Assembly (NCBI GenBank): GCA_029933125.1 | Contig: JAOZOU010000001.1 | Coordinates: 547,680-611,679, forward strand | DNA length: 64,000 bases | Direction of reading: 5' to 3' | Source of the DNA: a bacterium | Lineage (GTDB): Bacteria > Arandabacterota > Arandabacteria > Arandabacterales > Arandabacteraceae | Made by a program: the position numbers and the translations under genes | Shown: positions 22,712-54,524 of the stretch, piece after piece | How the letters are laid out: each line of letters opens with the position of its first letter | Position numbering within the stretch: position 1 is the stretch's first letter | Notes under the pieces: model-generated | Seen by the model: the letters and a program-made list of their open reading frames with translations, nothing else | What the model was told of the DNA's origin: nothing | Databases searched by the model: none

Positions 22712-23953
22712 CTAGGTTTGATCCTTGAATAGATATGCTGCTGGGTGTGACTTTCTTATGACTTCCACCTTACCATCATCTATCATAATCTCAGCAGGCC
22801 AACCAAGACTCATGAAATTCACCAAGCTCATGGAATATCCGTAGGCACCTGCATTGAAAATCCCAACAATATCGCCTGGCTCCGGCTCAGGAAGAAGCAC
22901 ATCCTTACCACTCACATCTATTGGGGTGCATATGGGACCTGCAACGTTACATAACTTCGTAGCAGGCTGGTTTATCTTGTTCAGAATCTTTATAGGATGA
23001 GCAACGCGCATTAGAACAGGCCTTGAGAAGTGATTCATTCCGGAATCGGTGATGACAAAGCATTTGCCTCTTGATGTTTTCACCCTTAAGACCTTTGTGA
23101 CAAAAATGCCAGCCTCAGCCACTATATACCTTCCGACTTCAACAATCATACGGCAGCCCTCATGTTTTGCTAGCAGCAGTGACCTTGCCCCGAATGCGGC
23201 ATCACGAATTGGAGTAAGATCGAGAGGTCGCTCATCACCGTAGGGAATACCAAAACCACCACCAAAATCAACGCACCTAAGATCAAAGCCAATTTCGTCA
23301 GCCAATTTCAATGCAAGGCGAGCAACATAGTCGAAGTGGTTGGCAATGAAGTTCGCATCCAGCACCTGACTTGCGGAATAAACATGAATGCCCTCTATGC
23401 GTACATTGCTGAGCCTCAACGATCGAATCTCGTCCACAACGCCTTCCTCATCTATGCCGAACTTGCTGGGGCCACCAACCATCATCTCTGGTGATATGGG
23501 CTCCTCGAGCGTGTTTATCCTTAAAAGCGCCCCAACCGACTTACCCTCCTTGCGAGCTATCCCATCAAGCAACTCGAGTTCGTAAGGCGATTCGACAACG
23601 ATGGCGAAAATGTTCTCCCTTACTGCAAGTTTGAGTTCTTGCTCTGTCTTACCTGGTCCAACAAAGGCTATATCCCTAGGCTTGAAGCCCACACGAAATG
23701 CAGCCTCGAGCTCGCCACCTGAACTCACATCCGCACCCGCACCAAGGTCAAGTAAGAGTTTGCAAATCGTCAGATTGGGATTTGCCTTGAAGGAGTAAAA
23801 AATCTCAAAACCCTCAAGGCTTGACTTTAGCTTGGCGAAGTTTTCTCGGATCTTTTTCGCAGAATATATGTAGAAAGATGTGGGATGGAGTCTTATAACG
23901 TCAGATATGGCTATGCCATCTATTGTGAGCTCTACATTCGAAGTTTCTCTCAA
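22712..23953 (-). CDS. Fold-type III PLP-dependent decarboxylase (LysA/ornithine decarboxylase family)
   Basis: 413 residues. The N-terminal alanine-racemase-like barrel has the PLP lysine in FYSFKANPN; DVSSGGELEAA, GPGKTEQEL, the HVYSASQVLD strand, GGGFGIPYG and EVGRYIVAEAG are the successive PLP- and phosphate-binding motifs. The C-terminal beta domain has GPICTPIDV and NAGAYGYSMS. It resembles diaminopimelate decarboxylase but lacks an obvious DAP-specific context, and may be one of the specialised carboxynorspermidine/pyridoxal decarboxylase-type enzymes found in small biosynthetic cassettes. The start overlaps the stop of the DUF364 gene by 4 bases. Substrate: an amino acid, otherwise open. 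Confidence 0.85.
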   Translation of the reverse strand: MRETSNVELTIDGIAISDVIRLHPTSFYIYSAKKIRENFAKLKSSLEGFEIFYSFKANPNLTICKLLLDLGAGADVSSGGELEAAFRVGFKPRDIAFVGPGKTEQELKLAVRENIFAIVVESPYELELLDGIARKEGKSVGALLRINTLEEPISPEMMVGGPSKFGIDEEGVVDEIRSLRLSNVRIEGIHVYSASQVLDANFIANHFDYVARLALKLADEIGFDLRCVDFGGGFGIPYGDERPLDLTPIRDAAFGARSLLLAKHEGCRMIVEVGRYIVAEAGIFVTKVLRVKTSRGKCFVITDSGMNHFSRPVLMRVAHPIKILNKINQPATKLCNVAGPICTPIDVSGKDVLLPEPEPGDIVGIFNAGAYGYSMSLVNFMSLGWPAEIMIDDGKVEVIRKSHPAAYLFKDQT

Positions 23954-24768
23954 GAAGCATCTCTCCTGTGAATTTCAATTCTGGACAACCCCTGGAATAT
24001 GTAAAATGGAAAAGGCTCGGAAACAACAGTATCTATACCAATGGTTTTGCAATACTCTTCGCCAAAATTCGCCCCCGTCTCTGCGAACATGAGAATCTTC
24101 GTCCCGTATTCCTTACAAAGATCAACGATGTCACCTACAGCATCCGTCGTGAGTGTCATGCCTGTAATGACAGCAACGTCAACGTGTTTTATATAGTGAT
24201 AAGTTTTGCCACCATGCTCCACAATGACACCGTGCAATTCCTCTCCAATTAAGCCCTCGTCCAGATCTGTTGCATAGACTTCATATCCTTTCAACTTAAG
24301 CCCTTTTACAAGATTCCCGACAACTCCAACATTGATCACGCTTGGTTTTTGCTGCTTGGGTTTGATACCACAAAGTAGCCGCTGAACCTCGTCAAGCAAG
24401 ATAGCATTACGGCGGGCTGCCTTTTCGATCGAATTTCCAGTTAACTTATAGACATGTGCTGGATTCCTGGGAATCGAGCTGTAAATGGAATCCAGAATTG
24501 CTATGCTGTAACAATCACGCTCACCTATTATGTTGCGAGCATCCTTCCCGATAAGGTTCACATCGACATCAAGATCCTTATCGCAATAGCATGACCCTTG
24601 CCCGATGGTCTGGCTCACGAGAAAGGCATAGCGGAAGATACGTTCATCAGGATTAGGTTGAAAAGCGAGGTCAATCTTCCAGAGTCCTCTTATGATGAAA
24701 TCCTCAGGCTTTAAGTGCGCAGTCTTCTTCGTCGCCTGTTCTCTGAGGATATTGTAAATATCAGCCAT
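23950..24768 (-). CDS. DUF364-type protein, putative heavy-metal chelation/Rossmann-like domain
   Basis: 272 residues. The C-terminal half (about 135-265) has the DUF364 pattern: NVGVVGNLVKGLKLKG, then TDLDEG, DVAVITGMTLTTDAVGDIV, and AETGANF; SEPFPFYIF closes the domain. The N-terminal half is less conserved with a small cysteine pair (SCYC). DUF364 proteins are suspected to bind metal or to take part in metallophore- or cofactor-like pathways; no reaction is established. It sits between the hydrolase (2 bases upstream) and the PLP decarboxylase (4-base overlap), so all three are made together. Confidence 0.75.
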   Translation of the reverse strand: MADIYNILREQATKKTAHLKPEDFIIRGLWKIDLAFQPNPDERIFRYAFLVSQTIGQGSCYCDKDLDVDVNLIGKDARNIIGERDCYSIAILDSIYSSIPRNPAHVYKLTGNSIEKAARRNAILLDEVQRLLCGIKPKQQKPSVINVGVVGNLVKGLKLKGYEVYATDLDEGLIGEELHGVIVEHGGKTYHYIKHVDVAVITGMTLTTDAVGDIVDLCKEYGTKILMFAETGANFGEEYCKTIGIDTVVSEPFPFYIFQGLSRIEIHRRDAS

Positions 24769-24770
24769 TG

Positions 24771-25688
24771 CTACCCACCCCTCGGCTTGCGATTTCCAAG
24801 TGATCTTCTATGCTCTGCAAGCCAATCTTCGATGAGGCTCGCAAGCTCAGTCTCATAACCCAGATAATTATGAGGAGCACCCCGAATAACTTTTCCTGTG
24901 AAATCCTCTGTGGCTATCATCTTTGATCTTATGCTTGCAAGATAGGCTTGCGGCTCTCCAATAAAAGCTTCCTCCACACTGCCAACGAGGACAAGCGTAG
25001 GAATGTGGATCTTACTGAGAGCATGAAAATCGGATGTATCAGTTTCGGATATGTTGAAAATCTTGAGGGGCGAATCGGGTCGAAAAATGTCATAATAGGA
25101 TGCGGCGGATACTGGATAATGGAAATATTCTCGTGGCATAAGTTCACGCGCTTTCCCCTCGGAAATCATTTTTTGAGATATTGCGAGAGCTTCATCAAAC
25201 CTCTCACCAAGTGCAGCACGCTGGAGCCCAAAATCATCAGAAGGAGATAGCAAGACGGTGCCTGAAACGGGTGAATCTGGCTTCTTGGATATGTAATAGA
25301 CAACCTTGAGCGCACCATGACTATGACCCTGAAGGATAATTGAACCGATACCACGATCCTTGAGAAAATCTATCCATGCATCGATATCCAGAATGCATTC
25401 CTCAAAAATCTCATAGATAGCACCGATCTGCTTATAGGTGATGCTTCCATCGTCAATACAAAGGAAGTCAGAGATGTAGTCACGGCCTCGCGTATTGACA
25501 GTGAGAAAGGCAAAACCCAGCCTGGTAGCAACATCTGAAACGTGATCAATAAAACGGTTCTCGTAGAAATTCCCTGCAAGCCCATGGACATGGATAATGC
25601 CATGCGTTGCATTGCTGTCTGGCATCATGAGGAGTCCATGAAGCTCAAGCCCATCGCCTGTTATGACCCTTTGAAACTCCCCTTTCAT
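24771..25688 (-). CDS. Alpha/beta hydrolase
   Basis: 305 residues. GIIHVHGLAGNFYENRFIDH contains the oxyanion-hole HG; nucleophile elbow GHSHG near 130; the acid and the catalytic His (APHNYLG) are near 240-275. Proteins of this shape are often annotated as DUF1749-like or small peptidase/esterase; no lid or signal sequence is visible, so it should be cytosolic. It is the first gene of the tight three-gene set with DUF364 and the PLP decarboxylase and ends 2 bases before the DUF364 start. The reaction cannot be named, but the context suggests release or activation of a small intermediate. Confidence 0.8.
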   Translation of the reverse strand: MKGEFQRVITGDGLELHGLLMMPDSNATHGIIHVHGLAGNFYENRFIDHVSDVATRLGFAFLTVNTRGRDYISDFLCIDDGSITYKQIGAIYEIFEECILDIDAWIDFLKDRGIGSIILQGHSHGALKVVYYISKKPDSPVSGTVLLSPSDDFGLQRAALGERFDEALAISQKMISEGKARELMPREYFHYPVSAASYYDIFRPDSPLKIFNISETDTSDFHALSKIHIPTLVLVGSVEEAFIGEPQAYLASIRSKMIATEDFTGKVIRGAPHNYLGYETELASLIEDWLAEHRRSLGNRKPRGG

Positions 25689-25811: not shown

Positions 25812-27062
25812 TCACCCACCTCTGGCGATTGCTTCAAACCTTGCCTTTAGACGATGATTGGGCTTTGCATTAGGAAGTGCAAGCCCAGCCTTGAGAAGAT
25901 AGGCATTTATGAAAATGCGATTCTTTAGATAAACATAGGCATACTGCACACTCTTTGAGCCCCTCACTGAGTCATCAAATCGTAAGAGCACCTGCTTGCC
26001 AAGAACATGACTCCGAAGGTATTCCACTGCAGCTTCGGCTTCCTTTGCCTTTATCCCTAAGAGCCTAACCCGCTTTCCATCCTCCGTACCGATCGTCGTC
26101 GCATTTATTATGCGATTGACACGCAGAAGCTTCTCCTCCTTCGGTGGGTGAGGATTGCATGCAGCAGCCTCAAGATTCTTGATTGCAGGAACATAGGCAA
26201 GCTTTCCAAGCTGAACTGGAAGTTTCCTTTCAAGTATTTCAACATTGTGGGAACTTGCATCCTTCAGCTTCCCAATACCAAGTTTCTTCATAATCACTCT
26301 GATGAAATCCCGATTTATCTCATAGCCGATCGCGTTGCGACCAAGTTCAAGCGCAGCCTTTACCGTTGTGCCACTGCCCAGGAATGGGTCAAGTACAGTA
26401 TCACCAACGAATGTAAACATCTTTATAAGGCGCTTCGGAAGTTCCGGCGGAAACATGGCTTCGTGACCAAGCTTGCGGGCGCCTCCAAATGTCCAGTGAC
26501 CTCGGAAGTACTGCTTCCACTCAAACTTGGTAAGCTTTGATCTTTCCTTGATCTCAGGTGTGACACGCTTGGACTGCCCAAGCTTCCTGAATATGTGGAT
26601 GTATTCGTAGTCAATTTCAATGATTCCATTGGGAGGATAAGGGAAGGAACCCATCACATTCGCTCCGCCACTCGGATTCATGGTGGTTTTCTTCTGCCAG
26701 ATTATCGATCCAAGGAAGTCAAAGCCAATGGCTTCACACTGCGCAATAATCTCAGCATGGAGAGGTATGATACGATAGCGACCAAAAGTGGTCGCCCTTG
26801 CAAATTGATCACCTATGTTTATGCAAAGACGCGCACCAGGGCGAAGCACACGATAGGCTTCGGACCAGACTCGATATAGGTCCTTAAGGTATGCATGAAG
26901 ACTTTGCCCGTAGCCTATCTGGTTGGTGACACCGTAGTCCTTCAGGTGCCAGTAAGGAGGCGATGTCACAATAAGATCGATAGTCTCGTTGGCGATCTCA
27001 GGTATGGCACGACTGTCGGCAATGTATATTTTGGCTGCAGGTCTCCCCAGATTGTCCCTCAT
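25812..27062 (-). CDS. Beta-class DNA methyltransferase fused to a SNase-like C-terminal domain
   Basis: 416 residues. The N-terminal methyltransferase (about 1-250) has motif IV TSPPYWHLKDYG (S34-P-P-Y37) before motif I DPFLGSGTT (from D225), the circular order of beta-class N4-cytosine or N6-adenine methylases (M.PvuII-like). The target-recognition region lies between. From about 310 the sequence reads as a staphylococcal-nuclease-like OB fold: KRVRLLGIKAKEAE, LGKQVLLRF, AYVYL and INAYLLKAGLA. The DGDT aspartate is replaced (NATT) and the GR-x-L arginine is missing, so nuclease activity is doubtful and DNA binding more likely. No restriction nuclease gene is adjacent. Ends 123 bp before the hydrolase operon. 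Confidence 0.85.
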   Translation of the reverse strand: MRDNLGRPAAKIYIADSRAIPEIANETIDLIVTSPPYWHLKDYGVTNQIGYGQSLHAYLKDLYRVWSEAYRVLRPGARLCINIGDQFARATTFGRYRIIPLHAEIIAQCEAIGFDFLGSIIWQKKTTMNPSGGANVMGSFPYPPNGIIEIDYEYIHIFRKLGQSKRVTPEIKERSKLTKFEWKQYFRGHWTFGGARKLGHEAMFPPELPKRLIKMFTFVGDTVLDPFLGSGTTVKAALELGRNAIGYEINRDFIRVIMKKLGIGKLKDASSHNVEILERKLPVQLGKLAYVPAIKNLEAAACNPHPPKEEKLLRVNRIINATTIGTEDGKRVRLLGIKAKEAEAAVEYLRSHVLGKQVLLRFDDSVRGSKSVQYAYVYLKNRIFINAYLLKAGLALPNAKPNHRLKARFEAIARGG

Positions 27063-27175: not shown

Positions 27176-27892
27176 TTACCAGGAAGCTCCTTTAACCCAC
27201 TGGATGAGGTAGTTCATACGTCCTGTCAGCAGGGAAATACGCGCCATTACAGTGTAGCCGAAGGATGCTCCGAAAGCCGCCATCAAGATCCAGATGCCGA
27301 ATCTGGCAACTCTTCCGAATGCGCCCTTATGCTCTTTTGAGAAGAAGAAGTAAACGAGAGCCGAAACAACTCCCCCAAAGACAACTAGCTGAGAGAAAAT
27401 ATTGCCAATGGTTGAAGCCGTTGTCGCACCTGGCTGATAAAGGGGAACCATTGTACTGTGAATCTGGCTTACAAAATCAGATTGAAGATAGCGTGTAAAA
27501 TTGGTTCCCGCCGCAAAACCTATGACAAATCCCATAGCCCATCGTGAGAGCCATGCGATTCTTGAAACCAATCGCGTGAGCAGAATGATACCAAATGCGA
27601 ACGGTATGATATAGATCCATTCACGAGGCTGTCCAACTGCAGCCGGCAGCACACCACCCATATGCGCTGGCCATAACCTGGCTATCATATTGGGTATCAG
27701 GGTTGTCCAGAAAGCAACCGTCATCCAGTAGGCGGCTGAAATTCCAACGAAAAGATGCTCAGCAAACTTATAGAAGGGATTATCCTTGTAGAGAAAGCTG
27801 AATATCATGAGTGTAAGCAGTGAGGCTATCCACACCCCGACTGCATGCGCAACTGGAGTTGTCAGAATTGGTTGGCTCTCAAGGATAATCAT
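27176..27892 (-). CDS. Six-helix membrane protein of the DUF6754 operon
   Basis: 238 residues with about six membrane helices (near 14-34, 44-66, 92-110, 115-133, 162-186, 196-216). Notable stretches are FAEHLFVGISAAYWMTVAFW and the conserved-looking PREWIYIIP loop and SRWAMGFVIGFAAG helix. Nothing matches a known transporter or enzyme. Its start overlaps the stop of the preceding gene by 4 bases and it is the last of four tightly packed genes, so it is likely a subunit of one inner-membrane complex. No function is claimed. Confidence 0.7.
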   Translation of the reverse strand: MIILESQPILTTPVAHAVGVWIASLLTLMIFSFLYKDNPFYKFAEHLFVGISAAYWMTVAFWTTLIPNMIARLWPAHMGGVLPAAVGQPREWIYIIPFAFGIILLTRLVSRIAWLSRWAMGFVIGFAAGTNFTRYLQSDFVSQIHSTMVPLYQPGATTASTIGNIFSQLVVFGGVVSALVYFFFSKEHKGAFGRVARFGIWILMAAFGASFGYTVMARISLLTGRMNYLIQWVKGASW

Positions 27893-28767
27893 CTGTATTT
27901 CCTCTTCCTCCTTCTCTCAAGCAGATAGGTTATGTTTCCAAGAATGATGAAAGCAACTATTACGAGGTGAGCTGTCACCTGCGGTCCCATAGTTGTGCTG
28001 GCTATGCGCGAACGCTTGGCGTATTTGGGATATTTCTTCACTAAGGCATATTCATACTCAGCCGCGCCCTGAAGCCCACCCATAAATCCCACCATCTGCT
28101 TAGGATAGTATGGATAGAGAAGGGGGGCCATGACAGCCGTCGTTCCACCTCCGACAGGTATATCCCCAGGATCGCCAGCAAACTGGATCCACTCCTTGGT
28201 TCCGGGAAAGCCTGAACCCAAACCTATGATGAGATCAAAGTCGCGCAAAGTCCGAATATCCTTCATCATAGGAAAGCTGTCGATAGGCTTGCCACTCATA
28301 TCAGTTGTGTACATGCCCTTGAAATCAGAAAGCAGCGTATTTATGAGCCCCTGGTTGCCCGCTTTGTATCCAAGATGAATCCAATCAACCCCATAGACCT
28401 TGTCAGGAAATTCCACCTTTATTATTTCGTCGATAAGCTGCTGGGACTGCCTCGATCCTGTTGGCCAGAGAGCCATGAGATAGATGCGATGGCTCTTTTC
28501 AAGAGCATGCCGCGTTACCGCATTAGCCATAGGCTGATTTTCGGGAACAGTGCTCGGCCCATAGTCGAAGCTTATGAGTATTCTCGAACCACCAGGTAGG
28601 CTTTCTATTTTGTCAAAGAGGGATTGAACTATCTCACTTGTTGGTATCGACGTCGCGTAGTGAAGAACCAATGGAATGATGACGGCTATTGCAATCAGCA
28701 AGAAGACATAACGACGATCAACTGCGCCTAAGCGTTCAATAATTGTCAGTTTCTCTTCTTCAGCCAT
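27889..28767 (-). CDS. Membrane-anchored alpha/beta-domain protein of the DUF6754 operon
   Basis: 292 residues from ATG 28767, one base after the stop of the previous gene, with AAGGA upstream. One N-terminal helix (about 19-39) and one C-terminal helix (about 262-282) flank a soluble domain of about 220 residues that reads as Rossmann-like alternation: RILISFDYGPST, RIYLMALWP, DWIHLGYKAGNQGL, DLIIGLGSGFPGTKEW and QMVGFMGGLQGAAEYE. The domain resembles that of the DUF6754 protein encoded first in the operon, so the two may pair. If the N-terminus is inside, the soluble domain is periplasmic. No catalytic motif is recognised. Confidence 0.72.
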   Translation of the reverse strand: MAEEEKLTIIERLGAVDRRYVFLLIAIAVIIPLVLHYATSIPTSEIVQSLFDKIESLPGGSRILISFDYGPSTVPENQPMANAVTRHALEKSHRIYLMALWPTGSRQSQQLIDEIIKVEFPDKVYGVDWIHLGYKAGNQGLINTLLSDFKGMYTTDMSGKPIDSFPMMKDIRTLRDFDLIIGLGSGFPGTKEWIQFAGDPGDIPVGGGTTAVMAPLLYPYYPKQMVGFMGGLQGAAEYEYALVKKYPKYAKRSRIASTTMGPQVTAHLVIVAFIILGNITYLLERRRKRKYR

Positions 28768-28768
28768 T

Positions 28769-29455
28769 TCAATCCTTACCTTCGGTTCCGAGATAAGACC
28801 TTTCAATTCCAAGAATGAGTCTCAAAGATGCGGAAACAATCCCCAAGGCGATGCCAATCATGATAGCTCTTTGCCCAGCCATGTTAGGAACAGACATTAT
28901 CCATGTGCTCAGATTTGGTATGTGCAAGAACTGCAAGGGTTTTGGCAACCAGAATGTGAGATAATAGCCGAGCGGCGTTGGTCGAAGAAGTATGACAAAG
29001 GCAGCAAGCAGAAGAATTGTTGCCTCCTTTGTCTTTGCTCTAAAGGCTCTGTATGAAGCCGACGCTACGAAAAATGCAAGCAAGGAAAACATCGTTGCCT
29101 GTAGAGGCTGGAAGGTTGCATCATAAAGATACTTGAGAAGACTTCCATCAGCCTGATAATCACCAGTCCAACCACCTGGAACTCCAATCTTGAGGAGACC
29201 AGCACCAAGCATGAGGAAGAATCCAGAGACGGTTACGATACTATACTTCCAATCCCGCCGCCGGTTCTGAATCCTTGAGAGATGGACCTTAAGCAGGTTG
29301 CCCCCACCAAGTATAAATGCGAAAACAGCAATGACATCGTAGAAAATCGAGAATTTGCTATCAAGTCCAGTGAAGGGCCAGTGCGGGATGAACATGGCAG
29401 CGATGAGGACAAGCCCAACAATGAAGGTAATTACAAGTGGTACCGTCCGCTTCAT
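28769..29455 (-). CDS. Polytopic membrane protein of the DUF6754 operon
   Basis: 228 residues with about six helices (5-25, 38-56, 74-93, 118-138, 145-162, 190-213). Between helices 3 and 4 is a Gly/Trp-rich loop (GVPGGWTGDY). It has no resemblance to a named family. It starts 13 bases after the stop of the FN3/DUF6754 gene and is followed, after one base, by the alpha/beta-domain gene. The strict order and spacing suggest a fixed complex of two polytopic and two single- or double-pass proteins. Confidence 0.7.
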   Translation of the reverse strand: MKRTVPLVITFIVGLVLIAAMFIPHWPFTGLDSKFSIFYDVIAVFAFILGGGNLLKVHLSRIQNRRRDWKYSIVTVSGFFLMLGAGLLKIGVPGGWTGDYQADGSLLKYLYDATFQPLQATMFSLLAFFVASASYRAFRAKTKEATILLLAAFVILLRPTPLGYYLTFWLPKPLQFLHIPNLSTWIMSVPNMAGQRAIMIGIALGIVSASLRLILGIERSYLGTEGKD

Positions 29456-29468
29456 CTGAGTGCCTTCC

Positions 29469-30665
29469 TCAGAAATTCATCGTGAAAAGACGACGTAACC
29501 AGTTGCTTGCTGCAAGCAGAGTCTCATTTCCTGTAGTACTGGCAAGTGTTGCCAGAGCGACTCCGGCAACGATGAATATTAGAGCTATTGCCTTGCCTGC
29601 ATCCTGGCCTTTGAGACTCCCTTGCATCTTTCGATCCTTCGAAAGATATGCACTCGCTGCAAAGAGCTCCTCACCGATGAGGGTGTAGTCACATGCCGCA
29701 ACAAAGAATGGCAGCTGTGTTGGCATTGCAGTACCTGCAACTTGAATTGCACCGATCGAGTTGCCTGTCTCTGCAAGTATGAGAGATTCTGCAAAGAAAG
29801 CCCCCAGATAGAAACAAGCTGCTGGCCGCTGCCTGACCATTATTCCATCCACTGCTGCAACATAGCCAAATTGCTCATCCGTAATGTAGTGAACAATGTC
29901 GTCATTGTAGAGATCAGGTCTGCCAGCTTCAAGATAAGCCTGTCTGACTGTCTCCCGACCTACACTCATAACGATTGAACGTGAAACTGGAACCTCAAGC
30001 TTTGTTTCATAGGTTGCAGCCTTCCTGGCAATGTGCGCAAGCAGGGTCATACCTGCAACCGTCTGGACGTTATCCATATCCTGGATACCCGGTATGAAGA
30101 GAATCGGTTTACCCATCTCGGTTGCACGTCCAACAGCCTCATCGATGGCCTCCAGCCCGGAAATTCGTCTGATATAGAGTTCCTTCCCTTTTGCGCCAAG
30201 AAAAATGAAGTAAGTTATTGCAAAGACAAGGATAAGAGCAATGACAAGCAGATTAGCACGGGTGCGATCGAACCACTGTTGTTTTGATTGCACAGGTCCT
30301 GCAATGACGGGCGCACTCGCGACGCTATCGGCTAAGGCCACTACCTGGTAATAATATGCAGTGCCATCATGCGTCCTTGAGTCAACAAAGCGGCGGGTTC
30401 CTCCTGGCACTTTGGCTACAACTTCACTGCTCTCAGGTGATCCGACGTAACGTATGATTCTGTAACCCGTGATGATTCCATTTTCACCTGTGTCGCCTGG
30501 GGAAAGCTCCCACTCGAGAGTTATGCTCCCACCCTTATCGCTCGGCGTGTCATATGCCTTCAAGGAAATCGGTGGCGGTACAGCGAGGGAATCACTTTCC
30601 TGGGCTATCGCACTTGACGCTACGAGGATAGCAGCAAGCGCAACTATCAAGGCAACCTTATGCAT
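29469..30665 (-). CDS. FN3-containing DUF6754 membrane protein
   Basis: 398 residues from ATG 30665. Order: signal peptide or anchor (ALIVALAAILVASSAIAQ), a fibronectin type III domain (about 35-130; ITLEWELSPGDTG, TGYRIIRY, YYYQVVAL), a membrane helix (about 142-160), a soluble alpha/beta domain (PILFIPGIQDMDNVQTVAG, MLLAHIARKAATYETKLEVP, AVDGIMVRQRPAACFYLGAF, AETGNSIGAIQVAGT, DYTLIGEELFAASAYL), and a C-terminal helix pair. This soluble domain is the DUF6754 type seen in several candidate phyla. It is the first of four co-directional genes. A 7-bp hairpin overlaps its Shine-Dalgarno (see finding). Role unknown. Confidence 0.78.
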   Translation of the reverse strand: MHKVALIVALAAILVASSAIAQESDSLAVPPPISLKAYDTPSDKGGSITLEWELSPGDTGENGIITGYRIIRYVGSPESSEVVAKVPGGTRRFVDSRTHDGTAYYYQVVALADSVASAPVIAGPVQSKQQWFDRTRANLLVIALILVFAITYFIFLGAKGKELYIRRISGLEAIDEAVGRATEMGKPILFIPGIQDMDNVQTVAGMTLLAHIARKAATYETKLEVPVSRSIVMSVGRETVRQAYLEAGRPDLYNDDIVHYITDEQFGYVAAVDGIMVRQRPAACFYLGAFFAESLILAETGNSIGAIQVAGTAMPTQLPFFVAACDYTLIGEELFAASAYLSKDRKMQGSLKGQDAGKAIALIFIVAGVALATLASTTGNETLLAASNWLRRLFTMNF

Positions 30666-30737
30666 CCTTATCCTTTCCAAGTAAGGATAGGCAAAGTCTA
30701 ATTGTTGTGAGAATAGTAATCATACGCTTGGCAGATC

Positions 30738-30837: not shown

Positions 30838-31002
30838 ATGAAGTACAGATGCAAAGTTTGTGGCTATGTCTACGATCCCGCTGTGGGTGATCCGGATAAT
30901 AATGTGCCTGCTGGCACGAAGTTTGAAGACGTTCCTGATGATTGGGTCTGTCCGGCGTGTGGAGCTCCGAAAAGCATGTTTGAGCCTATGCAAGCGGAGT
31001 GA
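30838..31002 (+). CDS. Rubredoxin
   Basis: 54 residues starting ATG 30838 with AAGGAGGA about 5 bases upstream. It has the two knuckles that ligate a single iron: C5-x-x-C8 ([12 protein letters not shown]) and C38-x-x-C41 ([10 protein letters not shown]), plus the conserved [11 protein letters not shown]. Full-length match to small electron-transfer rubredoxins, which pass electrons to rubrerythrins, superoxide reductase or oxygen-scavenging flavoproteins. It stands alone, divergent from the DUF6754 operon and convergent with the M28-type aminopeptidase (4-base gap). Points to an anaerobic or microaerobic host (inference). Confidence 0.96.
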
Positions 31003-31006
31003 AACG

Positions 31007-33064
31007 CTAGCCCCGACGTTTCACAAACTCGACCAATCCGGCATCAGCAGAGATCTCGAAGCAAAGTCTTACAAGATCGGGATTGGTTTCTCCAATCTCG
31101 GCTGCCACAACTCTCGAAATGTCGGCGATAGAACGCTCGCCATCAGCCCAGAAGAGGGAAAGTATCCAGATGAGATCAGCCTTGGCTTCGCGCTTGCGCC
31201 ATCGATTGTAGCGGCTACGCCGTCGCCCAGTTGTTCTGCGCAAAGCATGCTCGGGATAGACAGGGCCAGGAATGAGACGCCTCACAACATGATCAGCTTG
31301 CTCCTTGATGCGATCATGAGCACGTTTGCGCATACTTGCAGATAAGGAAGCAACATCACATACCTCGGCCTCAGCCTTGACACACTTGGTATAGGCTCTC
31401 ATTTGATCGCGTATCCTGCGCTGCAGGGATTTTGATCTTGGATGCAGGCTGCCCAAACCCATGAGGACCTTCCTGCCATATTCAAGTAAGAGGCCCGCCT
31501 CAAATTCGAGACTTACCCACATCGGGGCATCGGATTGAGCAAATTCAGCCATCTTGTCAACCGCATCTCTCCGAAGTGCCTGGCCAACTATGTCAGCACA
31601 AAGCTTGAGATCATTCTCGTCAGCTCTGGCAAGCGTATAAATGACCGCAGCACCTATAAGTCCAATAGATCGGAGCATCTCGGGAGATACCTTGTCAGGC
31701 GTGTCAGCACTGGTATGGTAGAAAAGATCTGGCCACTGGATAAGCATAGCGGTCGGCACTCCAACAAGGGGATCCGAAAGGACATAATGGTCACTACCTC
31801 CTGAAAAACTCGTTGTCTGCATTCGTACAGAGAGCAGATCACTTGATAGCCCCGTGTCCCCCTTATGACTAAGGACCTTGCGGGCTGCATGCTCTATGAG
31901 GTAGTGGATGAATCCACCTGAAGCCATAGGTGGAGCTTCAATGCAAAGAGTCGAGCCAGTTACATCCTGGCGTTGGCCAACCATATCCAGATTAAGCCCT
32001 GTCACGAGACGCTGCCTGGCAGAATGCTCGCGCGAAAGGTACGCGAAGGTTCCTGTTATTTCAGGTACCAGAAGAAATCTTATCCCGAAGCGCGGTTGGG
32101 GAAGAATCTGTCTCTCAATGAGATTGGAAAGGACCTTGTGGATCTCGAGAAGAGCAGCAACCCCAGAGGCGTTATCATCTGCTGAAGGTTTGGGGTGGCA
32201 CAGATGTGCAATCACCAGAACCTCTCTATCCTCTCGGCCCGCTATGAGTGAGGTTACAACCTCAAGTGTGCCAGGATAGGTTTCGCTCTCCACCAGTGCC
32301 CAAGCCTTAACGGGTCGCCTTTGGCTGCGAAGGTGGTTCGCAAGCCTATCGCCGTCCTCAGGTGTAAGCACAAATCCGAAAAGTTCATTCTCATCCCACC
32401 AGAAGGAATTGTACTGGCGCGCACCATATACACCTGAGCCAAATCTCACACCCGGCAGGTGCCTTTGCTTATAGAGAATGATACCACTTACGCCTGCGCT
32501 AGCCGCTGCCTCATACACATGACTTGCCCTCCAAGCATCACATAAAGCGATCTTCCCCCTCGCTCTTTTGAAATCCTTCTCAGTTCGTCCATCCCCACCA
32601 TCGATTACCTCGGCTGCGATCCCATGCGGCGGCGTCGCCTTGCTCCTTTGAATCACCGAAATGGCACAGTCATTAAAATCGGCTAGCTTTGCTGCAAGCT
32701 CGGGTGGCGAGATAATCTTGAGAACAGCTTGTTTTATGGACCATTCATCAAAGGAAGGGAAGTGCCAGAAACTTGCACCACGTTCAGCAGGATAGTGGAT
32801 AAGACGAGCATCTCCACTATCCTCGAGAAGATGGTCTATGCAATACTCAGCAGCACGGCGGTAGCCAGGGCTAGCTTGGATGCGATGGAAACGCGAAAGG
32901 GCAAGGACGTGATCGTAAGCTCTCTCGGCTGAAATCTCTGACGAAAGTGTGTGCAAGAGCTCAGTAAACATTGAATCCTCGATGTGCGCGGCTTGCTGGT
33001 ATGGTATCAAGTCAGTCCTCAAAGGGTCAATGAATAGTTTTTGGTAATGCAATCTCTCGCTCAT
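31007..33064 (-). CDS. M28-type aminopeptidase with PA-like insert and C-terminal winged helix (DUF4910 family)
   Basis: 685 residues. The metallopeptidase core (about 270-480) shows the M28 metal ligands in order: H in VIAHLCHPKP, bridging D in SADDNASG, E in VPEITGTFAY, D in LNLDMVGQ, and H in FYHTSADTPDKV. A protease-associated-like insert (about 160-225, around DAWRASHVYEAAASAGVSGI) precedes it. After an alpha-helical stretch the last 80 residues form a winged helix (ADLIWILSLFW), as in DUF4910 proteins. No signal peptide, so a cytosolic peptidase. Convergent with rubredoxin and divergent from the dockerin protein. Confidence 0.85.
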   Translation of the reverse strand: MSERLHYQKLFIDPLRTDLIPYQQAAHIEDSMFTELLHTLSSEISAERAYDHVLALSRFHRIQASPGYRRAAEYCIDHLLEDSGDARLIHYPAERGASFWHFPSFDEWSIKQAVLKIISPPELAAKLADFNDCAISVIQRSKATPPHGIAAEVIDGGDGRTEKDFKRARGKIALCDAWRASHVYEAAASAGVSGIILYKQRHLPGVRFGSGVYGARQYNSFWWDENELFGFVLTPEDGDRLANHLRSQRRPVKAWALVESETYPGTLEVVTSLIAGREDREVLVIAHLCHPKPSADDNASGVAALLEIHKVLSNLIERQILPQPRFGIRFLLVPEITGTFAYLSREHSARQRLVTGLNLDMVGQRQDVTGSTLCIEAPPMASGGFIHYLIEHAARKVLSHKGDTGLSSDLLSVRMQTTSFSGGSDHYVLSDPLVGVPTAMLIQWPDLFYHTSADTPDKVSPEMLRSIGLIGAAVIYTLARADENDLKLCADIVGQALRRDAVDKMAEFAQSDAPMWVSLEFEAGLLLEYGRKVLMGLGSLHPRSKSLQRRIRDQMRAYTKCVKAEAEVCDVASLSASMRKRAHDRIKEQADHVVRRLIPGPVYPEHALRRTTGRRRSRYNRWRKREAKADLIWILSLFWADGERSIADISRVVAAEIGETNPDLVRLCFEISADAGLVEFVKRRG

Positions 33065-33988: not shown

Positions 33989-34777
33989 CTATAGCGGGAG
34001 ATTGAGGAGCTCCTTCATCAGCTTCGCATTGCGGGCAGCCTGCCCGGCGTGGCAATTATTGAAGAAGACAAACGTTTTCTTCGCCCTTGCTGCCATCCTC
34101 CTTATCTTCTCAACCCATTCCTTGAGCTCATCTTTGGTGTAGAGATAATCATAGCGGTCTCCGCCTCCACCCCACCAATTCTTTGCATTACGCCCATGAA
34201 GGCGCACATAACCAATGTCAGTGGTGACTTCCGCAATCGGAGGGACAAGCCCCTTAAGGCGTGGTTCATCAACAGCGCAGTAACCTATTCCCATTGATCT
34301 TAGATTCTCAAAAAGATCAGGAGTTATCCACTCACTATTGCGGAACTCAACGAAGAGAGGGAAGTCCTGAAATTTCTCCTTCAAGAACTCAAGATGTTCG
34401 ATGTTCTCGCGTGTCCGCTTGAATCCCCAGGGAAACTGAGCGATTATTCCACCAAACTTACCCGCATCTATGATCGGCTGAATCGCATCCTTGAACTGAC
34501 GATAGAGTGCACCGTCTTTGGATTGATTGTGTGTCATCTCCTGGTTTGCCTTGATGACAAACTCAAAATCAGATGGTGTCTTTTCCTCCATGCGCCTGAG
34601 CACAGCTGGATGAGGGATGCGATAATAGGTTGAATTGACCTCAACCCCACGAAAGTGTTTGGTGTACTCTTTGAGCATATCACCCTTGCGAATGCCACGT
34701 GGATAGAAACTTCCCACCCAATCATCGAAGCTGTAGCCAGATGTGCCAACTATGATTCCTCGAGCCTCATCCGCCAT
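33989..34777 (-). CDS. DUF72 family protein
   Basis: 262 residues from ATG 34777 (MADEARGIIVGTSGYSF), preferred over an upstream start because the DUF72 fold begins at IIVGTSGYSFDDW. Other family marks are YYRIPHP, the FEFVIKANQEMTH strand, AQFPWGF, FVEFRNSEW, YVRLHGRN and the C-terminal FVFFNNCHAGQAARNA. DUF72 proteins have a TIM-barrel-like fold related to UVDE/AP-endonuclease-type enzymes; their substrate is unknown. The start lies 28 bases inside the preceding membrane-protein gene. No signal peptide. Confidence 0.88.
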   Translation of the reverse strand: MADEARGIIVGTSGYSFDDWVGSFYPRGIRKGDMLKEYTKHFRGVEVNSTYYRIPHPAVLRRMEEKTPSDFEFVIKANQEMTHNQSKDGALYRQFKDAIQPIIDAGKFGGIIAQFPWGFKRTRENIEHLEFLKEKFQDFPLFVEFRNSEWITPDLFENLRSMGIGYCAVDEPRLKGLVPPIAEVTTDIGYVRLHGRNAKNWWGGGGDRYDYLYTKDELKEWVEKIRRMAARAKKTFVFFNNCHAGQAARNAKLMKELLNLPL

Positions 34778-35187
34778 CGCAAGACCTCGACACCCAGTGT
34801 GACCCCAAGACCAACCGCAATCCCAAGTGAGAAACCCCATGTGAAACCGCTTGAGAGCGAGCCATACAGGCTATCGGGGATGTTCGCCCCAATTGCAAAA
34901 CCGTAGATTATGAATCCACCAAACCCGCAGAGAAGGGCAGGCAAGGCTGCTCCAGCCACAATGCGCAAGGAAGCTCTATTTCTTCTTGTCATCCAGAGAG
35001 CACTCAAGATTCCTATGGTAATAAGTGTGGCAAAGATGAGGAAGCGTGCCATACTGCCTCTTTCGCTTTCAACAAAAATACCCCAGAAGACCGTGCTTGC
35101 AAGGATGACGATCATAGCATCTCGTCTGCGAACAGCGGTTGCTGCTGATGCGATCAGCGAATAAGCCAGACCGTAGGTCACGAACAT
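34750..35187 (-). CDS. Small membrane protein
   Basis: 145 residues as drawn from ATG 35187, with about four helices (SLIASAATAV, MIVILASTVFWGIF, FLIFATLITIGILSALW, and a Gly-rich C-terminal pair). The same frame is open and coding-like upstream (ending GRLSVAEQHAFAM) back to a CTG at 35328, with AGGAGG at 35343-35338, nine bases before it. The true product is probably about 192 residues starting at that rare CTG. The 3' end overlaps the DUF72 gene by 28 bases. No family recognised. Confidence 0.6.
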   Translation of the reverse strand: MFVTYGLAYSLIASAATAVRRRDAMIVILASTVFWGIFVESERGSMARFLIFATLITIGILSALWMTRRNRASLRIVAGAALPALLCGFGGFIIYGFAIGANIPDSLYGSLSSGFTWGFSLGIAVGLGVTLGVEVLRWRMRLEES

Positions 35188-36713: not shown

Positions 36714-39653
36714 CTAGTCGTTGAAGAAGACAACAACATGCCCCTGACTCAATGAAGTCCTTGTCCCAACAGCAATATCAGGGCGGTAGTCTTTGTTGAA
36801 ATCGTTTATCGTCAGCGTGATCGCCTCACCGATATTTGGGCTCACCCAGGCATTACCGCTCGATGGCAGATATCCGTAGCATTGATATACAAGAAGATTC
36901 CCTGAGTAAGTCCCGGCTTGCTTGATCCCAACTGCAAGATCGGGATAGACATCACTGTCGAACCTATCAACACCCATACAGAGAACTTCCCCGTTGAGGT
37001 GCAGCGTGTCTGATGGTTCATATTCGCCAAATCCGTTCAAGACGCCGAAGGTGCCATCACCATTTCCAAGCCACAGCTCAACCATGCCCGTGCCCTCACC
37101 TGTCTTAGTTCCCACAAGGATATCTAGATCACCGTCTGTGTCTTCGAGCATATCGGTTACAATCAGACAGTTGACCTCACCAGCCGCATCGATTTCTCCA
37201 TGGTAAGCGAACTTCCCATTTGGGGAACCGCGGTCACGGAATATCTCAATCTTGCCTGTATTCACGCCTGAGATAGTTCCAAGGATAACGTCATCCGCCG
37301 GGCTATTGCAGACATCACCGACACCGAGATCTCTTACTGAATTGAGCACCGGTCCACCAATATCATCATAGATATCATCCGAAGTGTGGCTGAAATTGCC
37401 TGAACCGTCATTAAACCAGACTTCAAGTTTGCCTTGAGGATAAAGGTACTCGGTCCCAATCAATGCATCAGGATCACCATCATCATCAACATCAGAAAGT
37501 TTTATCGCGAGAATATCTGCGAGTGTACTTGCTACAAAGAAACTGCTCGGAGATGTTGGGAGCTTACCCTTGTGACTTCCATGGGTCTGGGTAAGCCAAA
37601 CAAGTACCCGCCCTGTGGCACTCGTAAGTCCTGTTACGACATCATTGACACCATCACCATCAACATCAGCAGCGTCTATTGAATAGATATCCTCAGCGGG
37701 GGTACGGCTATAGGTTGGTTCCTGCTCAAAAATTGCTGAGTTCGGAGTACTCGAGTTGCGCCAGTTGTTGAACCATACATTGAGGTTGCTTACGCCGCTA
37801 ACGTACTTCGTGCCCAGGATTATCTCTGGCTCGTTTTTGTTGTCCTCGTGGAGATCGGCTGATGTTATGCACAGAGCACGCTGGGTCTCGCCAAGGGTTA
37901 TCACTGTGAAGCTAAGATCGGTCGCAAGTTTGTCACCAAAATTGACTGTCACAGTTGATTCGGCCTGTACAACAACACCCGTAACGTGGTTTATCGTCGT
38001 GGATTCATAGCCACCGAGATCCTCCTCAGTCACATCATATGTGCCCGGTGCGACTGTGAAACTGTAAAGCCCGTCAGCATCAGTGAGAGTGCTGTCACCT
38101 GTATTCAGTCTGAGAACAACACTTGCAATCCCCGATTCGCCTGGATCAAGAATTCCATCTTCGTCGCTATCAAGGAAGACCTTGCCAGCTATTGTCCCAG
38201 TTGATCTTACAGGCAAAAGGCCGAAGTTGACATGAACTGTATCGCCTTCACCACTTAGAGTCCTGTCAACAGTCGTCGGACCAACAGCTGCATAGCTCGG
38301 AGGCACAACGAGGGTTATTGAATAGGTCGAGACGGGAACGAGGAACATGTATGAACCATCCCACGAGGTTGTATCCCTATCACCAGTGTTGAGATAGATT
38401 TCAACGTCGGAAACACCATCTCCAGTAGGTATCGGGTCTTCCCCAGGAACCTCTTCATAAAGGAGGACACGACCCAAAATCAATCCGTAGCCACCTATGG
38501 CTTTGTCTCCAAAATTTACGCGGGTGGCTGCACCTTTCACGGCTGTAACTACAACTGCATTCGGTGTTGTTGAAGTGTAACCTACTGGATCGACCTCCGT
38601 CACGGTATAGGTACCTGGGTCAACCCTGAATGCATAGCCTCCCGCAGCATCTGTCGTTCTCTGAGCGCCGGTGTTGAGCCTCACTGTGACACCCGAGAGG
38701 CCACTTTCGGCGAAGCCCTGAACGCCATCCGAATTAAGATCATTGAAGACAAGGCCGACGATATAGGCTGAACGCAACGGCGTATTTCTTACGGTAACTT
38801 CTGAACTTATGAGGGTTTCCCTGTAGCCTTCGTTTCTGCTCACCCTCGGATCGGTCGCCCTTGCACTGCCAATAGCATTGATACCTATTCTTTTGATAAG
38901 GGGAAGCGTCCCGGCAGGTATGGGGGTAAGAGTCGCTATTTCAGATTGCTGCAGAATGCCGTCACCTGAAACGTCGCCCCAGAGAACATCAGGTGTTGAT
39001 GCATCACCGTCATCATCATACCAGTAGGTGAAAAGCGGCATGGGGTAGCTGCCGTCATCGTAAGGATCAGGCCCTCTCACGAGAGCTATTTGCTGGCTTT
39101 CTCCTCCGTTGGACGAGCCATTGTAACCATAGACCTGTCTTATAAGTGCATAATCGTAGGGGTTGCGCGTTTGCTCAATGGCATCATCACCGTTGTCTCC
39201 GTCATCGATCACGCCATCGTTGTTGGAGTCCAGGGTTAGCCTTATCGTTTCAGCCCCCGTTGTGTAGGTACGCGTTGGGGCATAATGAACTGCGCCTGAG
39301 GGCGGCACTGTGGCTGGAGATGCATCGATATCGATAGCGGTTGGATAGCCGGGGCTACTGCTATTATCAGGATTTGGCTCAATGTTGGCATTGAAAATCA
39401 ACTCGTAAGGAGATGCATAAACAATACTTAGCTGCCCATTGCCGACGTCAACCCCATAGCCGACCGACCGCAAATCACGCGTAAGATAATCCACTGCAAC
39501 CCTTGCATTCTGCTGTGCCTGAGCATCGATGGAGGCAATGCGGGATGCGCGACGGCTACTGTTAAGCACATAGAACAGGGCTATCGCTATGATTCCAGCA
39601 ACAACGAGTACGATAAGTGTCTCAATCAGGGTGAAACCTTTGTTTCTACCCAT
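36714..39653 (-). CDS. PilW-like pseudopilin fused to three CnaB/SdrD-like repeats and an FG-GAP-like region
   Basis: 979 residues. The N-terminus is a class III prepilin signal, MGRNKGFTLIETLIV, with cleavage after G6 and the E5 of mature pilins. Residues to about 290 form a PilW-like pilin body. Then three CnaB/SdrD-like repeats start near 295, 388 and 484, each beginning GxVFxDxxxDG or similar, containing TDAxGxYxFxVxPGTYxVTE and ending VNFGDK. From about 575 to the end are FG-GAP/VCBS-type repeats (DVDGDGVNDVVTG, DVDDDGDPDALIG, DTDGDLDILVG), expected to fold as a propeller. Such large modular appendages on a minor pilin are unusual. Probably displayed at a pilus tip or the cell surface. 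Confidence 0.82.
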   Translation of the reverse strand: MGRNKGFTLIETLIVLVVAGIIAIALFYVLNSSRRASRIASIDAQAQQNARVAVDYLTRDLRSVGYGVDVGNGQLSIVYASPYELIFNANIEPNPDNSSSPGYPTAIDIDASPATVPPSGAVHYAPTRTYTTGAETIRLTLDSNNDGVIDDGDNGDDAIEQTRNPYDYALIRQVYGYNGSSNGGESQQIALVRGPDPYDDGSYPMPLFTYWYDDDGDASTPDVLWGDVSGDGILQQSEIATLTPIPAGTLPLIKRIGINAIGSARATDPRVSRNEGYRETLISSEVTVRNTPLRSAYIVGLVFNDLNSDGVQGFAESGLSGVTVRLNTGAQRTTDAAGGYAFRVDPGTYTVTEVDPVGYTSTTPNAVVVTAVKGAATRVNFGDKAIGGYGLILGRVLLYEEVPGEDPIPTGDGVSDVEIYLNTGDRDTTSWDGSYMFLVPVSTYSITLVVPPSYAAVGPTTVDRTLSGEGDTVHVNFGLLPVRSTGTIAGKVFLDSDEDGILDPGESGIASVVLRLNTGDSTLTDADGLYSFTVAPGTYDVTEEDLGGYESTTINHVTGVVVQAESTVTVNFGDKLATDLSFTVITLGETQRALCITSADLHEDNKNEPEIILGTKYVSGVSNLNVWFNNWRNSSTPNSAIFEQEPTYSRTPAEDIYSIDAADVDGDGVNDVVTGLTSATGRVLVWLTQTHGSHKGKLPTSPSSFFVASTLADILAIKLSDVDDDGDPDALIGTEYLYPQGKLEVWFNDGSGNFSHTSDDIYDDIGGPVLNSVRDLGVGDVCNSPADDVILGTISGVNTGKIEIFRDRGSPNGKFAYHGEIDAAGEVNCLIVTDMLEDTDGDLDILVGTKTGEGTGMVELWLGNGDGTFGVLNGFGEYEPSDTLHLNGEVLCMGVDRFDSDVYPDLAVGIKQAGTYSGNLLVYQCYGYLPSSGNAWVSPNIGEAITLTINDFNKDYRPDIAVGTRTSLSQGHVVVFFND

Positions 39654-51314: not shown

Positions 51315-54300
51315 CTATGGCAACAAAACTACCCTGTGCGTCCTAGTGTAACTACCAATGCTTACGCGGACGAAGTATATCCCGGGAGGAGAGATCCTAC
51401 CGTTTTCATCACGCGTATCCCAGGCGATCAAAGACTGACCCTGTTCAAAGAATCTGCCATCAGCGATATTCCTGACCAATCGACCACTCACGTCAAACAC
51501 CTTCACGGTGACTGCATCCAAGTGCTCCAGACTCAGGGCGATGTGCACATCGGACCGTGCAGGATTGGTGAGTACCGTTGATCCTGTCTCGACCTGCTGC
51601 CTATCGACATCAACCGAGGCACTTTCGATACTGAATATGCCCTCAACCCCAGTCAGGTTTACGGCACCCTCATCCGCCTCCAAATCAGTTGGTGTCAGGC
51701 TACAGGACCAGACGGTCGGGTCTGAACTGACTACGTAAGAGATGCTCAAGATTTCACCAGAGCCGCTGATAGGATCTATCCCAGCCATTGCTATGCGGGT
51801 CTCACCAGGCATCTTGTTAGCAGCTATCATCCATCCACTTGCCAGCCCCGTGGCATTGACATCCTGCACGCTGAGGAGCCGTTCATCATGTCGTATGGTG
51901 AGCTGGAGCGAACTGATGCCCTGTGTAGTTTCAAGATAAACAGGTATGTTCACCATCTCACCCTCTGCGCCGGCTGCCTCTCCCGCTCGAATGACTGCAG
52001 CGACTGTTGGACTATAAACCGGACCTCCACCGGGCCGCCAATTGCCGCTCACGTCGCCCATGAGCACACCGACAAAATCTTGGTCGGTCATGCTTGTAGC
52101 AACAGGGCAATAATCGACTGAATCGCAATAGAAAACCCACTCGCCACAGTGTGCCCCGTCTATCCCCACAACGTACTTCAATATGCATGACGCATCATAG
52201 GCTGTTATTGAACCGTTACCGCTGACATCAGCCGCAACTTGCTGGGGATAGACTAGAGTGGGCGGGCACCACGAGCCATCTGGTAACTGCATTGGATATA
52301 TTGGGCAATCCATGAGTTTCTCGCGATTGACGGTGTAGCGCAGCACCATCGAAGCATCCATCGCGCTGACCCCAAGCAGCTCACCTGGTGCCTTCTCTGG
52401 TGTGACGGTGTAACAGCTGTCAACACAGACTTCCAACTCGTAAGTCCCGGATGAATCAGTTTCGACCACCTGGCTGTCAGCCCCAGACAATATCATCTTC
52501 ACCTCAGGGATAGGAGGATTTACGTTACCCACGACTGGGCATCCATAGTAGCGAACAGTCCCCGTGATCGTTTCCACGGGCAAACAGTACTCGCCATCGC
52601 CAGTTATGGTGACACATGGGTCTCCTTCATTGAACATCAATTCCAATGTGAGATCACTACAGCCCGGGCATGGAGCGCTGTCCGCAATCGCAAAAGTGAA
52701 TACCACCAGCCGTCCTGATCCAGCTAACTCGCTCACCCCCGCCATTGACACCTTACTTCGGCCAGGTGATAGCTCGTTCCAGGCAAATGACCACCCTATG
52801 GTTTCCACAAGACATCCAGATATCTCAAACCCTGTCGCGACCAATACCGCAGGATCATAGTTCATTATGGCCTCTGCGGAGAATACCCCTCTGCCAGTAA
52901 CATCCGAGATCTCTACAGGTACTCTCACGACACCATAAGTATCGGTTGTGACCTCACCAACCCAGGCACTTATACACGAGCAGCCACTTACCTCGTCAAA
53001 GTCGTAGGAGATAATCGGTAAGTCGCAAACGAGCTTGCAGGTGTCTCTTACAACATCGCTAGGGGTAATCCCCTCAACTACCTGAACCGCAAGTTCAACA
53101 GAATCCCTGGGTGCCATTGCGGGCAAGTCACCGAGATTCCATGTCACCGTATGTGTTACGCTGTCATAGACGCCACCCCGTGAAGCCGATCGGAACAGTG
53201 TCAATGGCGAAAGTATGTCTGTTAGTACAATGTTATGCACATCGAAGTTATTGTTGAGGTTGTCATATGCGATAATGTAGCTGAACCTTGCACCTGAGTA
53301 GACACACGTGTCTGGCGGAACTCGGCGCAACTCCAGAGTCAGCGGGTTTACCCTCGCATACGAGATGCAAATACCAGCCGGATTGGTTATGTGGTCATCT
53401 GGATCTGGGTAGATATAGACGCAGTTGAGGCTGGAATCGAAGACACGGAGATCGTCCGCGCCATTATACTGGGAGCCAGTCGTAACATACAGCAATCCTG
53501 TCAGGGGGTCCACAGCAAGCCCCATGGCCCCACCCTCAGAGGACAAGGAGACGTACGAAGTTGCGCTGCTAGACATCTCGTATTTTGCTAGTCTGTAATC
53601 ATCTGCGAAGGAGCCACCGGTGTAGAGGAGCATGTTGTCCTCGTCATAGGCAACACCAACAGCATGTGTACTCGCCGTGGTGCATGTTCCCACCTCAGCC
53701 CATGTGTTGGTGTCATAGTAGTGGACTACGGGGCTCCAATTCGTCACGAAAAGCCAATCACTCCTTTCGTCAAGAGCAATACCCCAGGCCCCGCTTCCAC
53801 CGAGAGTGGTCAAGTTCACTGTGGTAATTAGTGCAAAAGTATCGGCATCATAGACATATAGGCGGTCAGTTCCACGGTCAACCGTGTAAACTCTCCTCTT
53901 GTGTTGATCTACAACAATGCCTGCTAAGTCCGAAGCTCCGCTAGCAGTAATGGTGGTGACGTTTGATAGATCCCGGGCACGGAAAACCTCGACATTGTTT
54001 GAGTTCTCGTAGGTCACAAAAATCAGGGCATCCTCCGTATCGCCGTCCCCATTAGGATCATTGTAGATGCTCATGTCACTAGCGCCGTACCCATGATGCA
54101 CTACGTGGTAGGTACCTTGGTAGTACAAAGGATACCCACCCGCAGGAACTGAACAGGCTACAATGGGATTGGGGTTACCGTGGTGATCACCTACAAGGAA
54201 GAGCGACCTCGTTGACCCATCCAAGAGTGATTGCTGGATACCGGCATAAACCAACTGAGAAAGGCAAATCATGAAAGCCGCAAGGAGAACAATAGCCAGG

Positions 54301-54326: not shown

Positions 54327-54524
54327 GTTCCTTCCTCCCTTCAGGTATAGAGTCACAAGAGACCTCCGGGTGGGAGGCACAAGTTGGGGAAGCGTTACTA
54401 TTGAGTAACGCATGATGAATGGAATCCGCAGTCGACCACCCCCCTTTGCTGGACGCCCCTGGACGCTTTGATCCGCCTTTAGCTATCGCAGCCGAGCAGC
54501 CTGCAGCTCTGGCGCTTAACCGCC

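Follow-up and report, generated by a model that had tools for sequence, protein, structure and literature searches.

A conserved DUF6754 gene cassette and its MutL-family partners, possibly forming an ATP-driven membrane system in diverse bacterial phyla

The DUF6754 domain is catalogued in Pfam as PF20539, an entry that states no role, and a literature search for DUF6754 or PF20539 found no mention of it, nor anything useful on a link between MutL-type proteins and membranes. The closest described systems are the MutL/GlmL family (PF13941; NCBIfam GlmL NF040745, TIGR01319), the Rnf/Na+-NQR complexes (RnfC/NqrA), and the group II energy-coupling factor (ECF) transporters, for which competition of different S components for one module has been proposed (PMC7755397). 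Here, a DUF6754 locus is described from the window, that is, the whole stretch of 64,000 nucleotides analyzed (contig JAOZOU010000001.1, positions 547,680 to 611,679, of the Arandabacterota assembly GCA_029933125.1). The locus consists of four genes, designated A, B, C, and D, which almost certainly represent a genuine conserved unit, and which in related loci are joined by genes for a MutL-family protein (M) and a barrel-sandwich protein (S). The favored, still tentative, interpretation is an ATP-driven membrane machine, perhaps for transport, in which one cytosolic MutL–S module is common to the membrane modules.

The open reading frames of A, B, C, and D are all present on the minus strand, between positions 27176 and 30665 and in the order A-B-C-D, with the following features.

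30666..30678, minus strand: Shine–Dalgarno-like sequence GGAAAGGATAAGG upstream of A (direct sequence reading)
29469..30665, minus strand: gene A, 398 residues, with a signal peptide, one FN3 domain, a transmembrane (TM) helix, the DUF6754 alpha/beta domain (predicted cytoplasmic), and a C-terminal TM helix (PF20539, E=1.8e-121; AlphaFold2 predicted local distance difference test (pLDDT) score of 93.9; homologues in dozens of loci)
30273..30587, minus strand: FN3 domain of A, residues 27-131, predicted extracytoplasmic (titin FN3 profile matches; VIA Z 14.2 to fibronectin FN3)
29526..30284, minus strand: PF20539/DUF6754 match in A, taking in both flanking TM helices and modeled as TM, helix, (beta-alpha)x6, TM
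28769..29455, minus strand: gene B, 228 residues, polytopic, six TM segments, N-terminus predicted inside by the positive-inside rule
27889..28767, minus strand: gene C, 292 residues, with a TM helix, a predicted-extracytoplasmic Rossmann-like (beta-alpha)x6 domain, a second TM helix, and a basic C-terminus inside (AlphaFold2 pLDDT 96.4)
28033..28635, minus strand: Rossmann-like domain of C, residues 45-245 (AlphaFold2 model, structure matches)
27176..27892, minus strand: gene D, 238 residues, polytopic, at least five TM segments, with conserved SFLYKDNPFYKFAEH and FFSKEHKG motifs and an ATG overlapping the C stop by 4 nucleotides

The start codon of A is the ATG at 30665, preceded by GGAAAGGATAAGG; that of C is an ATG picked for its spacing to B, the TTG at 28812 being a mechanical start of the reading frame only. 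With these starts, A and B are separated by 13 nucleotides and B and C by one, and C and D overlap by four (ATGA), as in the close packing (4-base overlaps, gaps of at most 13 bases) noted in the original prediction, which a model had made from this DNA. No RNA families or tRNAs were found when the window was scanned for them. The arrangement is far beyond chance because the A-B-C-D order is conserved in dozens of genomes.

A scan of the GTDB genome collection based on C yielded at least 566 confirmed stretches, and 80 loci were fetched. Gene order was counted with six-frame profile searches over 86 loci, namely the 80 fetched, five others from the window's own genome, and the window, and was A-B-C-D in 78 of them; the exceptions were mostly contig ends, and one was an orphan A. 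The fetched loci derive from Eisenbacteria, Zixibacteria, Latescibacterota, WOR-3/Stahlbacteria, Marinimicrobia, Cloacimonadota, Calditrichota, Planctomycetota, and others, and both A and C occur in all eight genomes examined of the window's GTDB phylum. The family, originally placed in candidate phyla, is not confined to them, the carriers including 41 of 149 sampled Planctomycetota, metagenome-assembled genomes labeled Gemmatimonadota and Bacillota, and Candidatus Syntrophosphaera. Frequent occurrence of the genes singly, which would have spoken against a system, was essentially not seen, the A-B-C-D order being near universal among the fetched loci; linkage fails only at the orphan A (L007), at contig ends, and in the split operons of four planctomycetes with C elsewhere.

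Partner genes were found by clustering the neighbors of the cassettes. Two recur just upstream of A, encoding M (~600 residues) and S (375 residues), and two further genes, for R (~110 residues) and T (a small PH-like membrane protein), complete the order T-R-M-S-A-B-C-D, which was seen at L009 in the window's genome, at L096 in another Eisenbacteria genome, and at five Planctomycetota loci. The order is M-S-T-R-A-B-C-D in Marinimicrobia, and M-S-A-B-C-D or small variants thereof in Latescibacterota and others. The notion of a conserved multi-gene unit therefore stands, but not its extent of four genes, ABCD being the membrane half of a longer unit. At the two Eisenbacteria loci, the eight-gene unit (L009:612-12762; L096:1113-11978) is flanked on one side by genes for glycine cleavage (gcvT/H/P subunits in L009, P subunits in L096) and on the other by one for a lipoate ligase; a function in glycine cleavage or lipoate metabolism was not adopted, this linkage occurring in Eisenbacteria only among the loci read.

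M matches PF13941 at 6e-129 (431 bits vs a cut-off of 27), shows 63-72% identity to the reference across phyla, and, on inspection of the alignment, conserves DCGSTTTK, VDIGGATTD, and GSGG, which we take to be the motifs expected of a nucleotide-binding protein of the acetate and sugar kinase/Hsc70/actin (ASKHA) type. S has an RnfC_N-like barrel-sandwich match above the cut-off (33.4 vs 25.6 bits), its only such Pfam match, together with a weak KOW-like match and no convincing relative among PDB sequences; for R and T, no Pfam family scored above its cut-off. M is linked to S by single proteins of ~950-1000 residues in which M- and S-like domains are fused (L093:3132-6089, L094:821-3826, and L095:20-3106), encoded in genomes where separate S and ABCD genes are present as well.

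The S profile matched all 27 ABCD genomes, 26 at E of 1e-130 or better and one (G022) weakly, and S is nearly always single-copy, versus one to seven copies of A per genome. In the 149 Planctomycetota, A was found in 41 genomes and S in 37 (both, 36; A only, 5; S only, 1; neither, 107), an association with a Fisher p of 5.8e-28, uncorrected for kinship; the A-only genomes include several small or fragmented assemblies, and the S-only genome (G101) has C. Furthermore, C is present in all 41 A-positive Planctomycetota and also in G101; each of 20 A-negative genomes lacks it. Four planctomycete genomes have M-S-A or S-A loci with C far away; these were rejected as units lacking B, C, and D, C being located elsewhere in the same genomes, and show that the operon can split. 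The idea of an obligate system is thus supported by the C–A co-occurrence and near-universal synteny, with the orphan A and the split operons as the few exceptions.

The window's assembly (3.23 Mb, 97% complete) contains six DUF6754 genes but a single MutL gene, at L009, so that the window cassette would have to share this MutL. Five of the A genes—those of the window, L008, L009, L010, and L011—each lead B, C, and D in order, and the lone A of L007 has the A of L008 as its nearest relative. In a domain tree of 150 leaves, the common ancestor of the six A copies spans 144, suggesting that most copies are older than the phylum and that the A copies are ancient and have been kept apart. Elsewhere, in Zixibacteria and WOR-3, tandem ABCD cassettes are found, up to three in a row. 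Such tandem pairs and triplets suggest hetero-oligomers, as might be expected if ABCD played a structural or scaffolding part in the envelope or in membrane domains, with MutL serving as an actin-like ASKHA scaffold instead of a motor. ASKHA folds do include actin-like proteins; however, the conservation of the MutL family resembles that of nucleotide-cycling enzymes, and a scaffold is considered quite improbable.

Protein A is a full-length DUF6754 member (404.6 bits vs a cut-off of 27, covering positions 2-254 of the 257 of the profile). Its N-terminal part is FN3 by both sequence and structure, with PDB profile matches to titin and fibronectin, and the AlphaFold2 model runs from a signal helix through FN3, a TM helix, a further helix, and (beta-alpha)x6 to a second TM helix; charge bias and the signal peptide predict the DUF6754 domain to be inside. 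When structure searches were made with the whole A model, FN3 matches occupied both result lists, and the DUF6754 domain had no match below E=0.24 among PDB sequences. The original description of DUF6754 as a family with no assigned role agrees with its Pfam entry, and no role emerges from sequence matches in Pfam, NCBIfam, or the PDB. Among 142 A proteins, 111 carry a single FN3-like domain, and some lack FN3.

An external FN3 and a highly conserved internal domain in one protein would also suit a transmembrane sensor or signaling complex, in which C and the FN3 of A detect a ligand outside and A signals to S and MutL as a cytosolic relay. The sharing of one cytosolic MutL–S pair by several apparently ancient copies fits such a complex, as does the DUF4388 gene that follows the cassette in nine WOR-3/Stahlbacteria loci, along with two genes read as roadblock-like. 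However, the roadblock reading lacks Pfam support, some A proteins lack the FN3, the unit contains no kinase, cyclase, receiver, or output domain, and four membrane proteins, two of them polytopic, exceed what a sensor needs. Overall, a sensor appears rather unlikely. At the nine loci concerned (L060, L071, L077, and L084-L089), the genes after the cassette comprise the DUF4388 gene, the two roadblock-like genes, and, at most of these loci, ExbB/ExbD-like genes, the last two kinds read by eye.

The model of C comprises a TM helix, a helix, six beta-alpha units, and a long TM helix, with the alpha/beta domain predicted to be outside by charge bias. No Pfam or NCBIfam model matched C above its curated cut-off, and no convincing relative was found among PDB sequences. 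Structure searches returned generic Rossmann folds, including dehydrogenases, the carbon monoxide dehydrogenase (CODH) epsilon subunit, and transhydrogenase domain III, at a generic level (best VIA Z 9.9 to MT0777, 1kjn; 8.3 to the CODH epsilon subunit; at most 8.0 to short-chain dehydrogenases/reductases) and with no Foldseek E below 1e-3. No specific known fold emerged for C from these matches, the model being generically Rossmann-like, and in these searches its predicted structure matched no known transporter or enzyme of the kind that would have undermined the original prediction.

The AlphaFold2 models of A and C share one plan, TM-helix-(beta-alpha)x6-TM, with membrane anchors on both sides. 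The best conserved residues are found mostly where strands end: A carries GT at strand 5 and GEE at strand 6/helix 6, and C carries G.T and G..GA.E.E. In both models a G-T motif closes strand 5 and a G..E motif lies at strand 6/helix 6. The similar sequence blocks claimed earlier for the two proteins (GAAEYE vs GEELFA) were undetectable by profile–profile comparison: hhalign with small, large, and domain-only profiles did no better than column-shuffled controls, and homology of A and C at the sequence level was rejected. Their resemblance thus survives in its structural part, the same order of elements, but not in its sequence part, and because sequence comparison fails to exceed the controls, the common origin that the models suggest for the two domains rests on structure.

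Rossmann-like domains that are catalytic or bind a cofactor would make ABCD and MutL–S a membrane-bound enzyme complex, acting for example on a lipid, cofactor, or envelope polymer, with MutL as an ATP-dependent activator, as is thought for MutL/GlmL with B12 enzymes. The generic folds matched by C, the strong conservation of polar residues at the ends of strands in both A and C, the barrel-sandwich match in S, and the placement of two units beside glycine cleavage and lipoate ligase genes are in line with this alternative. However, the fold matches are all weak (VIA Z below 10, none below 1e-3 in Foldseek), the gcv/lplA linkage is limited to those two loci, and an NAD(P)-type domain would be unusual outside the cytoplasm; an enzyme complex is regarded as unlikely.

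B and D are both polytopic, with six and at least five TM peaks, respectively. B has no significant match in Pfam, NCBIfam, or PDB sequences, and D none in Pfam or PDB sequences and none above the curated Pfam/NCBIfam cut-offs. A Pfam scan of all alignment members of B, C, and D gave scattered weak matches only, the TMD0_ABC match among B members (best 0.0034) being at the level expected of any polytopic protein, and homology between B and D, when compared, was not found.

In the favored ATP-driven machine, A, B, C, and D would make up a single inner-membrane complex that serves a larger assembly as its membrane module, with B and D as the membrane core. The cytosolic module would consist of M, presumably an ATPase, and S, aided by R and the membrane-bound T; S and MutL may dock on the cytoplasm-facing DUF6754 domain of A, and the periplasm-facing domain of C, perhaps together with the FN3 of A, would bind a ligand or partner outside the cytoplasm. 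ATP turnover by the shared MutL–S could then drive a vectorial step through B and D in each of one to seven membrane modules, most likely the transport or assembly of an envelope component. More doubtful is the broader proposal of an unrecognized class of ATP-powered machine, found in the Fibrobacteres-Chlorobi-Bacteroidetes (FCB) superphylum and Planctomycetota, in which an ASKHA ATPase of the MutL type, not an ABC, AAA, or P-type one, serves several diversified ABCD modules with related Rossmann-like domains on opposite membrane faces. The favored machine draws on the near-constant A-B-C-D order, the colinear eight-gene loci, the co-occurrence of A with C and S, the nearly always single S and the one MutL of the window's genome against several A copies kept apart since ancient times, the PF13941 match of M, the MutL–S fusions, and the common plan of the A and C models. 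Several points weigh against it. MutL/GlmL relatives are known as accessory proteins of B12 mutases, not transporters; neither B nor D matched a transporter family in Pfam or PDB sequence searches; the ectodomains of A proteins are only modestly diverse, as the prevalence of a single FN3-like domain indicates; the conserved residues of C could equally form an enzyme site; no consistent metabolic neighbor offers a clue to a substrate; and in two WOR-3 loci (L097 and L099) no MutL adjoins S, MutL not having been sought elsewhere in those genomes.

Around the cassette in the window, a DNA N4/N6-methylase gene (25812-27062), whose product has a weak SNase-like match at its C-terminus (E 0.0015), lies just downstream of D, next to packed genes at 22712-25688 for a lysA-like pyridoxal-phosphate decarboxylase, a DUF364-like protein, and an alpha/beta hydrolase, the last of which stays near the cassette in L012-L014. 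On the other side are a rubredoxin gene (30838-31002, plus strand), divergent from A, and an M28/DUF4910 peptidase gene (31007-33064) with a weak C-terminal winged-helix match, an M28 peptidase gene being kept near the cassette in L013 and L014 as well. A DUF72 gene is located at 33989-34840, 3.3 kb from A, and another lies directly 3′ of ABCD in L114 (5747-6529). Farther away, large secreted proteins are encoded at 36714-39653 (SdrD_B/FG-GAP with an N-methylation motif) and 51315-54413 (cohesin and C-terminal sorting domains).

A unit whose gene order has been preserved in at least eight phyla, with up to seven apparently ancient copies per genome, must serve some need of its hosts. Linking DUF6754 to a MutL-type ASKHA protein joins scattered hypothetical proteins into one testable system and suggests that the MutL family may have a role beyond B12 enzymes. 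About a quarter of the sampled Planctomycetota carry the unit, offering a route to genetics.

To our knowledge, no system of such composition has been described, and it is new in this sense, with a proposed function that is unproven; the earlier view of an undescribed system is upheld in that no database assigns it a role. A is a full member of PF20539, which covers the domain of A only; none of B, C, D, R, and T reaches the cut-off of any Pfam family. With Rnf/Na+-NQR, the unit shares the RnfC_N-like barrel-sandwich of S, a protein that would likewise belong to a membrane complex as a subunit on the cytosolic side; S was rejected as RnfC or NqrA (TIGR01945, rnfC, 22.6 vs 245.95 bits; TIGR01936, nqrA, 16.2 vs 321.05 bits), and no RnfA/E- or RnfD-like subunit was found. 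M belongs with MutL/GlmL by its PF13941 match and conserved ASKHA motifs but falls below every NCBIfam cut-off (GlmL, 230.5 vs 475 bits; Or-4, 216.5 vs 600; GlmL-family, 170.7 vs 204), and differs by a C-terminal extension and by the company of a membrane system; among the loci inspected by eye, none showed a recognizable B12 mutase gene next to M, no genome-wide mutase search having been made. Pfam scans of A-D, M, S, and T gave no ABC ATPase, EcfT, or EcfS above cut-off, and the putative ATPase, being of the ASKHA type, differs from that of group II ECF transporters. The likeness to these transporters is instead one of working principle, drawn from copy numbers, in which several membrane modules would be served by one cytosolic ATP module.

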